Assembly (NCBI RefSeq): GCF_002894645.1 | Contig: NZ_NCQY01000004.1 | Span: 62,001-126,000 of the forward strand | Reading direction: 5' to 3' | DNA length: 64,000 nt | Origin: Salinibacter altiplanensis | GTDB lineage: Bacteria; Bacteroidota; Rhodothermia; Rhodothermales; Salinibacteraceae | Part shown: piece by piece, positions 27,959 through 63,243 of the stretch | Layout: each line of letters begins with the position of its first letter | Position numbering within the stretch: the first letter of the stretch is position 1 | The notes under the pieces: model-generated | Seen by the model: only the letters and a program-made list of their open reading frames with translations | Told to the model about the DNA's origin: nothing | The model's database searches: none | Program-made: the position numbers and the translations under genes

Positions 27959-28038
27959 ACAACACTCTCGGCTGAAGGGCCCCAAGCATTTGTCATCTGG
28001 GCCCTACCATCCAATATTCTTACCATCCAACACTAGGG

Positions 28039-28121
28039 TGGGCCGGGGAGGATTCGAACCTCCGAAGGCATAAGCCGGCAGATTTACAGTCTGCTGCGTT
28101 TGGCCACTTCGCTACCGACCC
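28039..28121 (-). tRNA. tRNA-Tyr (GTA)
   Basis: 83-nucleotide class II tRNA with a long variable arm, as expected for bacterial tRNA-Tyr. Acceptor GGGTCGG pairs with CCGGCCC (one G-U). The anticodon loop is CTGTAAA (GTA), and the T arm is GGAGG TTCGAAT CCTCC. It is the first gene of the minus-strand tRNA cluster. GTA-anticodon tRNAs are queuosine targets, relevant to the queuosine glycosyltransferase homologue at 62-63 kb. Confidence 0.95.
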
Positions 28122-47435: not shown

Positions 47436-48998
47436 TCACGGATGGAGGCGCGCAATCGTGCGCGGGAAGGGGATCGTTTCGCGGACGTGATCGCGCCCGG
47501 TGATCCAGGAGACCGTACGTTCCAGCCCCAGCCCGAAGCCGCTGTGGGGCACGGCCCCAAACGTGCGGAGGTCGAGGTACCAGTCGAAGACCTCTTCCGG
47601 CAGGTCGTGCGCATCGATCTGCTCCTTCAGAAAGTCGAGGTCGGTCGCCCGCTCCCCACCGCCGATGATCTCACCGTAGCCCTCCGGCGCAAGCACGTCG
47701 ATTCCCATCGCGAGGCGGTCGTCGTCTGGGTCGCGTTTCATGTAGAAGGCCTTGATCTTGGCGGGAAACCGGTGGACGATGACGGGGCGGTCGAAGTGCC
47801 AGGTAAGCACCGTCTCGTCGTTGCCGCCGAAGTCTTCGCCCCACTCGAAGGTCTGGGCCGACTCCTTCCAGTCCGGCAGGTTGCGGAGGGCCTCTTCAAT
47901 CTCGTCGACCCGCTTGTTGATCTCGATCTCTCGGGCGTCGATTTTGCGCTTCACGTGTTTCTTCGCCTGCCCGCGGCGCGTCTGGTTCTCCTCTTTTTCC
48001 TCCAGGAGCTCCGCCTTCTCTTCCTTGAACGCCTCGATGCGTGCGTCAATCATCTCGGCCGTCTCGTCGCTGCGGAGCAGCCCCACCGCCTCGTCGTAGC
48101 TGATACGGGGAAATGGCGTCTCTACTTGTTCGAGGGCGGTTGTATCCCGGCCCAGCGCCTCCAGCTCCTGCTCACAGTCGTCAAGGACCGCCTGCACGAT
48201 GTGGGCCACGAAGTCCTCGGCAAGCTGGGCATTCATCTCCAGGTCGTAGAACGCCATCTCCGGCTCGATCATCCAGAACTCGGTAAGGTGGCGCCGGGTG
48301 GCCGACTTCTCCGCGCGGAAGGTGGGGCCGAACGTGTAAATCTTGCCGTACGCCATCGCCATGGCCTCCCCGTGCAGCTGCCCGCTCTGGGTGAGGTAGG
48401 CGCTCTCATCGTCGAAGTAATCGAGCTCAAAGAGCGTGGAGGTCCCCTCCACCGCGTTCCCCGTCAGGATGGGGGCGTCGGTCTGAAGGAAGCCGCGCTC
48501 CTGGAAAAACGCATGGATGGCCGTCTCGACGCAGTTTCGGATGCGCATGACCGCCCACTGGCTCTCGCTCCGCAGCCACAGGTGACGGTGCTCCATCAGA
48601 AAGTCGATCCCATGCTCCTTCGGGGTAACGGGATAATCCCCCGACTCCCCAATCCGCTCGATGGCGTCGACCTGAAGCTCGTACCCGCCCGGCGCCCGCT
48701 CGTCCGCACTCACGGTGCCGGTGATTTCGAGGGCGGCCTCCTGCCGCACGTCATCGGCCACGGCCCAGCTGTCGGTGTCCACCGCGTCCTGCGGCACCAC
48801 GCACTGGACGAAGCCGGAGCCGTCGCGCAGGATCAAGAACTTGATGCCCCCGGAGCCGCGCTGGTTGTGGAGCCAGCCCTTCAGGGTAACCGTCTCGTCG
48901 ACGTGATCGGCAAGGGCCTCGATGCGGGTGAAGTCCTCGATGGTCCCGCCCTCGCGGTCGGGACTGAGCGTCGGGGCGGAGGAGTCGGCGTCGGACAT
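47436..48998 (-). CDS. asnS: Asparaginyl-tRNA synthetase with coiled-coil insertion
   Basis: 520-residue class IIb synthetase charging tRNA-Asn. The N-terminal OB-fold (VTLKGWLHNQRGSGGIKFLI) is followed by the catalytic domain: motif 2 FGPTFRAEKSATRRHLTEFW and motif 3 GFGLGLERTVSWITG. Residues ~309-382 form an extra, strongly charged helical segment (EAFKEEKAELLEEKEENQ, KRKIDAREIEINKRVDEIEE) between EAVGLL and FEWGEDFGG, absent from standard ~430-460-residue AsnRS. It converges on nothing; the UbiA-like gene lies upstream on the same strand. Confidence 0.95.
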   Translation of the reverse strand: MSDADSSAPTLSPDREGGTIEDFTRIEALADHVDETVTLKGWLHNQRGSGGIKFLILRDGSGFVQCVVPQDAVDTDSWAVADDVRQEAALEITGTVSADERAPGGYELQVDAIERIGESGDYPVTPKEHGIDFLMEHRHLWLRSESQWAVMRIRNCVETAIHAFFQERGFLQTDAPILTGNAVEGTSTLFELDYFDDESAYLTQSGQLHGEAMAMAYGKIYTFGPTFRAEKSATRRHLTEFWMIEPEMAFYDLEMNAQLAEDFVAHIVQAVLDDCEQELEALGRDTTALEQVETPFPRISYDEAVGLLRSDETAEMIDARIEAFKEEKAELLEEKEENQTRRGQAKKHVKRKIDAREIEINKRVDEIEEALRNLPDWKESAQTFEWGEDFGGNDETVLTWHFDRPVIVHRFPAKIKAFYMKRDPDDDRLAMGIDVLAPEGYGEIIGGGERATDLDFLKEQIDAHDLPEEVFDWYLDLRTFGAVPHSGFGLGLERTVSWITGRDHVRETIPFPRTIARLHP

Positions 48999-61745: not shown

Positions 61746-62094
61746 AAAATACTGTTGACAGGACGCTTCTCTTCTCCTTTGGCAGTGTATAGGTTCTTGT
61801 GTATGGAGTCAACATGAAGAGATGTTCGGGGCCGTCAGCGTAGTCAAAACCGGATCCAGTTCAACGAAGCCTGTTTGTCAAGGGGAGCGGATCCGAGGCC
61901 GTAAAGGAACCCGTCCTTGTTCGGCCGGCCTTGAATCGAGGTCGGAGCGGCGAAGGGATGTGTTCTCGCCCCAACGTCTCTTCCGAGGGCTCTGCACACA
62001 TCGTGCACTCCGGCACACGCCGTGCTGAGTGAGCGTTTCGACGATTAGTAGCCGTCCACCTCCGTTCCTCGCCCTCCGATTGTCGATTCTCTCG
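61746..62094. other. Divergent intergenic region, ComF / QTMAN-like gene
   Basis: About 350 bases. The first ~70 bases beyond the ComF start are AT-rich and include a TTGACA-like hexamer at 61753-61758, but no well-spaced -10. Open frames across 61820-62030 are basic and lack family features. No RNA recognised. Confidence 0.4.
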
Positions 62095-63243
62095 ATGAAC
62101 GTTCTTGCCCTCGAACCCTGGTACAGCGGGTCTCGCCGCCACTTTTTGAATGGGCTTGCCGAGCACAGCACTCATGATGTCCGACGGGTGACCATGCCGG
62201 GGCGGTTTTGGCAGTGGCGAATGGAAGGCGGGGGCGTGACCTTGGCCCAGAAGGTGCGTTCGGTCGTAGACGAGGGCTTCCGGCCCGACCTGCTTTTTGT
62301 GACGGACATGGTCAACCTGCCCGCCGTGTTGTCGCTGGCCCGCCCCTGCCTCGACGACGTGCCGACCCTCGCCTACTTCCACGAAAACCAACTCACCTAT
62401 CCGGTGCCCCCCAGTGAAGAGGGGAAGCGGGCCTACGCCGTCACGAATTACCTCTCGGCCCTGGCCGCCGACCGGGTCGTGTTCAACACACAGTCGCACT
62501 TCGACGAGTTTATCGAGGCGCTTCCGCAACTCCTCCGCGACTTCCCGGACTTTACGAACATGCACACCGTGCGCGACATCCGCGACAAGAGCACGGTGCT
62601 TCATCCCGGGATCGACCTTGCGGCCCACGACGAGTACAGGGACACGGGCCGCACCTCTCCCGGCACGGCCCCGCCCGTCGTGCTCTGGACCCAGCGGTGG
62701 GAGCACAACAAGAACCCATCGGGCTTTTTTCGGATGATGAATCGGCTCAACGACGCCGGGGTGCCGTTTCGGCTCATCCTAGCCGGCGAGCACTTTCGCG
62801 AACAGCCGGAAGAGTTTGAGCGGGCCTTCGAACGCTACGCCGGTCGCATTCTCCACTACGGCTACGCCGAGGACTTCGATGCGTACAGCCGTCTGCTGCA
62901 CCGGGCCGACGTGGTCGTCTCCACGGCCCGCCACGAGTTCTTTGGAAAGGCCATTCAGGAGGCTATCTACTGCGGCTGCCACCCGGTCCTGCCCAATCGC
63001 CTCAGCTACCCGGAGCTGATCCCCGAGACGCACCACCGCCCTCTTCTCCACGCCCCCATCCTCTACGAGGACGAAGACCATCTTTTCGGGGTGCTGCGAT
63101 CGATTCTGGAACGCGAGGAGCGGCCCCTCCCCCCCGACACGCTTCACCAGATGCCCGAGCCGCTCGACTGGCGCACCCACGCCGAAGGCTACGACGAGCT
63201 GTTCGAGGCGACGGCGTCGGAGCCCGCTGCGGTGGCGGCGTGA
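62095..63243 (+). CDS. tRNA-queuosine alpha-mannosyltransferase homologue (QTMAN/GTDC1, DUF3524)
   Basis: 382-residue glycosyltransferase with the DUF3524 N-terminal domain of the eukaryotic QTMAN enzyme. Matching landmarks in order: LEPWYSGSRRHFLNGL, LFVTDMVNLPAVLSL, LAYFHENQLTYPVP, ALAADRVVFNTQSHFDEF, VVLWTQRWEHNKNPSGFF, ILHYGYAEDFDAYSRLL, ADVVVSTARHEFFGKAIQEA and IYCGCHPVLPNRLSYPELIP. In animals the enzyme adds mannose to queuosine-34 of tRNA-Asp. ATG 62095 begins exactly at MNVLALEP. Whether the bacterial protein modifies queuosine, and with which sugar, is inference. Confidence 0.88.
   Translation: MNVLALEPWYSGSRRHFLNGLAEHSTHDVRRVTMPGRFWQWRMEGGGVTLAQKVRSVVDEGFRPDLLFVTDMVNLPAVLSLARPCLDDVPTLAYFHENQLTYPVPPSEEGKRAYAVTNYLSALAADRVVFNTQSHFDEFIEALPQLLRDFPDFTNMHTVRDIRDKSTVLHPGIDLAAHDEYRDTGRTSPGTAPPVVLWTQRWEHNKNPSGFFRMMNRLNDAGVPFRLILAGEHFREQPEEFERAFERYAGRILHYGYAEDFDAYSRLLHRADVVVSTARHEFFGKAIQEAIYCGCHPVLPNRLSYPELIPETHHRPLLHAPILYEDEDHLFGVLRSILEREERPLPPDTLHQMPEPLDWRTHAEGYDELFEATASEPAAVAA

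Follow-up and report, generated by a model that had tools for sequence, protein, structure and literature searches.

The QTMAN-like gene of Salinibacter altiplanensis raises the question of whether a bacterial homologue of the animal queuosine-tRNA mannosyltransferase (QTMAN, GTDC1) serves queuosine (Q) in its host and, if not, what has kept it in the genome. The gene is part of a 64,000-nucleotide stretch of DNA, which is referred to here as the window (Table 1). A sequence-only reading of the window, made from its letters and open reading frames, had recognized the homologue and deduced from it that this bacterium produces a glycosyl-queuosine.

Table 1. The QTMAN-family gene, its domains and motifs, and two tRNA-related features of the window (positions in nucleotides of the window).
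Feature	Position	Strand	Evidence or remark
tRNA-Tyr(GTA)	28037..28121	-	Named in the sequence-only reading
Class II (D/K/N) aminoacyl-tRNA synthetase	47436..48998	-	PF00152, E=2e-64
QTMAN-family GT4 glycosyltransferase CDS, 382 aa	62095..63243	+	ATG matches the starts of homologues
PF12038 QTMAN_N domain (formerly DUF3524), residues 2-173	62098..62613	+	Pfam, E=8.7e-58
G12-S13-R14, start of the first N-domain helix; GGSH-loop H14 replaced by R	62128..62136	+	Alignment, model
HENQLTYP motif, residues 96-103, with invariant H96 and E97	62380..62403	+	Alignment
Glycos_transf_1 domain, residues 192-313	62668..63033	+	Pfam, E=2e-11
T199-Q-R201-W-E-H-N205-K206	62689..62712	+	GT4 R-x4-K pair retained; N199T and D205N atypical of the family
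E281-x7-E289 motif, intact	62935..62961	+	Alignment

The reading frame is open from a GTG at position 62029, and homologues begin at the downstream ATG. The protein scores 195 bits over the complete QTMAN_N model (model positions 1-168), the cut-off being 25, and the AlphaFold2 model is a full-length GT-B fold with a mean pLDDT of 90.5 and a pTM of 0.90. Taken together, sequence and predicted fold give good support to its membership in the QTMAN family, as had been proposed from the sequence. The genome contains a single PF12038 gene, and such a gene is present in 93 of 100 relatives; Bacteroidetes MAGs aside, the closest named relatives of the protein come from Salinivenus iranica and S. lutea. 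Pfam already names PF12038 the tRNA-queuosine mannosyltransferase family, and its coverage includes the bacterial proteins discussed here. NCBIfam returned no specific family, all matches being far below cut-off, and a sequence search for a close solved homologue found none.

Among the structural matches listed, the fold relatives are general GT4 enzymes only, among them PimB' (3oka; Z 26.4, rmsd 3.4, 334 residues aligned), PimA (2gej; Z 25.7, rmsd 3.7, 318 residues aligned), MshA, BshA, and a tetrahydrobiopterin glucosyltransferase. PimA and PimB', which use GDP-mannose, resemble the window protein in fold and in the GT4 donor-site residues, but they share only 15-16% identity with it, act on a lipid acceptor, and do not belong to the QTMAN_N family. 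With animal QTMAN, the window protein shares the full QTMAN_N domain, the GT1-type C-domain, the GT-B fold, and H96, R201, K206, and E289, the likeness being judged solely through the Pfam family model. The claim that nearly all landmarks of the animal enzyme occur in order was accurate for QTMAN_N and the core GT4 residues, but three positions depart from it, namely H14R, N199T, and D205N.

The invariant residues among 44 members from several phyla, which include R42, H96, E97, R201, K206, G284, and E289, are all kept, as are both donor-site elements of GT4 enzymes, R-x4-K and E-x7-E, the latter being a motif of the retaining members. Residue 14 belongs to the GGSH loop and is histidine in nearly all members of the family, but arginine in the window species and its sisters without TGT; in the AlphaFold2 model strand 1 is followed by the first helix, and residue 14 stands where that helix begins. 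This is the usual place of the glycine-rich loop of the GT-B N-domain. When 45 columns conserved at 97% or more among 96 background sequences were compared, control members of the family broke none or one of them, the TGT-less Salinibacter proteins one to five, and the window protein the three already named. The S. iranica and S. lutea proteins are altered at a largely different set of residues (S13, Q99, Y102, P103, and D205). The QTMANs of TGT-bearing Rhodothermota such as G009 and G016 are 71-79% identical to the window protein, but unlike it they are unchanged at the conserved columns and come from genomes that keep TGT, QueA, and QueG. G009 also shares the gene order ndk-msrA-comF-QTMAN with the window genome.

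The sequence-only reading had asked for tgt, queA, and queG in the genome, and of these only queA is present, with altered conserved motifs. In the genome of the window species (G000), which is 99.75% complete, no TGT was detected by a search that was positive in 14 of 14 control genomes; the enzyme that would provide Q34-tRNA as a substrate is thus absent from this host. The deduction of a glycosyl-queuosine is not well supported for this bacterium: the absence of tgt, one half of what had been named as speaking against it, was observed, and the other half, absence of queA, was not. Furthermore, QueC and QueF, which mark de novo synthesis, are both absent, as are QueG and QueH; the sole QueC match of the window genome has 25.6 bits, covers model positions 3-48, and falls within a frame of 598 aa. 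Compared with the setting of animal QTMAN, therefore, the window host differs in having neither TGT nor QueG. The tRNA-Tyr and the synthetase that had been put forward as a hint of Q substrates are uninformative on this point because every bacterium has both. The tRNA was found in the window, and the predicted synthetase is compatible with asnS, although its assignment goes as far as the class II D/K/N group and does not extend to N-specificity within it.

The same pattern extends through much of the genus. TGT was not detected in nine other Salinibacter genomes (G001-G006, G008, G010, and G011), and the TGT-less set includes genomes of two and three contigs at 99% completeness, whereas two sister species, G007 and G009, have a normal TGT. 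QueG is likewise absent from the other TGT-less genomes, and QueH gave no match in any of the 37 genomes searched. QueF is absent from the TGT-less genomes, with only subthreshold matches in G006 and G011, and QueC appears in them as short weak matches inside larger frames, G012 excepted. This last genome, which we take to be that of Salinivenus iranica, carries two weak and divergent TGT-like matches (E=5e-10 and 7e-6) together with two QueC-like genes on a single contig (C90:8000-66000; L184, L185), perhaps an island for 7-deazaguanine DNA modification of the Dpd-like type. TGT, QueG, QueC, and QueF were also not detected in G018, a genome of the same family that is 87% complete and whose QueA and QTMAN motifs are normal, with T186 of QueA kept; this may reflect a recent loss of TGT, possibly a third one, or a gap.

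What the TGT-less genomes retain, in addition to QTMAN, is QueA and the precursor transporter YhhQ/QPTR (COG1738). In the window genome, QueA passes its equivalog cut-off (E=7.8e-116), and YhhQ is a TIGR00697 equivalog (E=9.7e-54). Both genes are kept in the TGT-less genomes except G008, which is 83% complete and lacks YhhQ, QueA, and QTMAN together; QueA is intact in ten of them, and the YhhQ proteins of G000 and G003, the latter presumably Salinibacter ruber, share about 92% identity. The retained genes do not form a cluster, QueA being adjacent to ispD and ispF, and QTMAN to ndk, msrA, and comF. A search around yhhQ and queA gave no preQ1 riboswitch. Relatives of YhhQ may carry other purines (PMC5372724).

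An assembly artifact as the cause of the TGT gap was rejected, because the near-closed genomes G003 and G010 also lack the gene and because its old site is present without it. The gene next to tgt in G009, along with a small conserved stretch, was found in G000, G003, G004, G010, G001, and G012, with about 70% identity of the neighboring gene at the syntenic site, and none of these six sites contains a remnant of tgt; G016, in which TGT is present, served as the positive control of the comparison. In a five-gene tree, the TGT-bearing G007 and G009 are placed beside the TGT-less G001 and G012 and not at the base of the TGT-less species as a whole, which makes two or more losses likely; the bootstrap value of this grouping is 50%, and that of the S. 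ruber clade is 100%. The steps represented by QueC, QueF, TGT, and QueG have thus probably been lost at least twice in Salinibacter and the former Salinivenus.

QTMAN and QueA of the TGT-less species are under purifying selection as strong as that acting on housekeeping genes. With the GY codon model, omega in the TGT-less S. ruber clade is 0.044 for QTMAN and 0.030 for QueA, to be compared with 0.036 and 0.020 in TGT-bearing genomes, and with 0.026 (ndk), 0.034 (msrA), 0.057 (comF), 0.063 (ispD), and 0.058 (ispF) for neighboring housekeeping genes of the same TGT-less genomes. QueA has also changed at conserved residues, and more strongly than QTMAN. Its motif APTAGLHFT, which is found in all three solved structures (1VKY, 1YY3, and 1WDI, from T. 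maritima, B. subtilis, and T. thermophilus), is altered in 10 of the 10 TGT-less Salinibacter sequences examined, and position 186 is K, P, or A in these ten and T or S in all the TGT-bearing ones examined. Purifying selection combined with changes at conserved residues is more in line with a new substrate than with decay or an unchanged function.

QTMAN is nonetheless dispensable, as the gene has become a pseudogene in the closest relative of G003, G010, and a search of the relatives detected no copy in G006 or G008. The G010 copy (contig C1:3244000-3254000, L144, around 3248600-3249430) is interrupted by an in-frame TGA (codon 253) and has lost one nucleotide in the poly-G stretch of EFFG. 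Decay of all QTMAN copies to pseudogenes, which is true of G010 only, was rejected on account of the low omega values. In a milder form, QTMAN and QueA would be functionless relics that have decayed slowly since TGT was lost, and the losses just described, as well as the conserved residues changed in both proteins, are in keeping with such a course. Against it stand omega values at the housekeeping level over a long divergence, the intact QueA genes, and the similarity of YhhQ between G000 and G003, and we consider slow decay improbable.

Since TGT has been lost and QTMAN is well preserved, there must be either a new target or an unrecognized route to queuosine. According to the latter, the clade would still make queuosine or epoxyqueuosine in tRNA, with YhhQ importing preQ1, a nonhomologous enzyme substituting for TGT, QueA adding the side chain, and QTMAN mannosylating it, so that the gene would act as the sequence-only reading had suggested. 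Setting aside TGT and the final reductase, a precursor salvager would need exactly the three genes that are kept, and members of the same order that have TGT without QueC or QueF suggest that salvage is common here. However, no TGT-superfamily protein was found, even though the model detects proteins as divergent as the TGT-like ones of G012; the lack of QueG and QueH and the changes at otherwise conserved residues of QueA and QTMAN argue in the same direction, so that this route appears distinctly improbable. A separate recruitment of the two enzymes, with QTMAN acting on an unrelated small molecule, lipid, or polysaccharide, and QueA having a noncatalytic or unrelated role, would agree with the variety of GT4 acceptors, with the diversity of the structural neighbors (MshA, BshA, PimB', and the tetrahydrobiopterin glucosyltransferase), and with the fact that QueA stays in G006 and G010 where QTMAN has been lost. 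It accounts poorly for the loss of TGT, QueG, and QueF with retention of YhhQ, QueA, and QTMAN in probably at least two lineages, and elsewhere the family sits in TGT-bearing genomes, a weak argument as TGT is so common; of the explanations considered, this is the most doubtful.

The explanation that we favor, tentatively and at somewhat less than an even chance, is that the window gene encodes an enzyme that once glycosylated Q-tRNA and has been retained as the final step of a residual YhhQ-QueA-QTMAN set, which works on another acceptor. Its ancestor would have been a bacterial queuosine-tRNA glycosyltransferase, and the present product would be a working GT-B/GT4 enzyme. In the lineage of Salinibacter and the former Salinivenus, the synthesis, insertion, and completion of Q (QueC, QueF, TGT, and QueG) have been lost, while selection still maintains YhhQ, QueA, and QTMAN. 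QueA would then place the SAM-derived cyclopentanediol on the aminomethyl group of an acceptor other than the preQ1-tRNA made by TGT, and QTMAN would use a nucleotide sugar as donor to attach a hexose to the resulting diol. As the genes are not clustered, we can only infer the cooperation of YhhQ, QueA, and QTMAN, and do so because the set has been kept in probably two lineages and is missing as a whole from G008; we likewise infer that QueA and QTMAN belong to one pathway, and what its acceptor and donor sugar are. A stronger proposal is that a queuosine-free remnant of the Q pathway persists, with QueA building a cyclopentanediol side chain on some other base or molecule and QTMAN glycosylating it. 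This is somewhat unlikely, but if true it would represent an undescribed glycosylated modification produced by retargeted Q enzymes.

In the wider family, 23 QTMAN-bearing genomes from other phyla were searched and 21 of them gave a TGT match above the cut-off, and most Rhodothermota carry both genes. This co-occurrence is compatible with Q glycosylation being the usual role of the family in bacteria but is weak evidence for it, because TGT is nearly universal; a bacterial glycosyl-Q is plausible but unproven in the relatives with TGT and QueA and in the TGT-bearing QTMAN genomes of other phyla. Five Rhodothermota (G020, G030, G036, G039, and G040) have TGT, QueA, QueG, and QTMAN without a full QueC or QueF and are predicted to be queuosine-precursor salvagers. 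Two isolated cases were also observed. A Thorarchaeota MAG contains a QTMAN homologue (L123:9995-11086, forward strand) that appears very similar to copies found in MAGs of Deltaproteobacteria and of Aminicenantes (L120, L128), which looks like a recent transfer or contamination, and the TGT match of a QTMAN-carrying deltaproteobacterial MAG (G115, contig C150:27984-29093) has an in-frame TGA.

A search of the open-licence literature yielded no paper that treats bacterial QTMAN or queuosine in Salinibacter biology, none that names DUF3524, and none that describes TGT loss with retention of QueA and QTMAN. TGT is commonly treated as the signature of queuosine. Given that the family already has its name in Pfam, the unusual part is the upkeep of QTMAN without TGT. 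A TGT-less genus in which YhhQ, QueA, and QTMAN remain under selection points to a novel TGT or to a novel substrate of QueA and QTMAN, either of which would be new. Salinibacter has cultured species in which this reading can be tested, and its TGT-bearing relatives within the genus are natural controls and good places to look for a bacterial mannosyl-queuosine.
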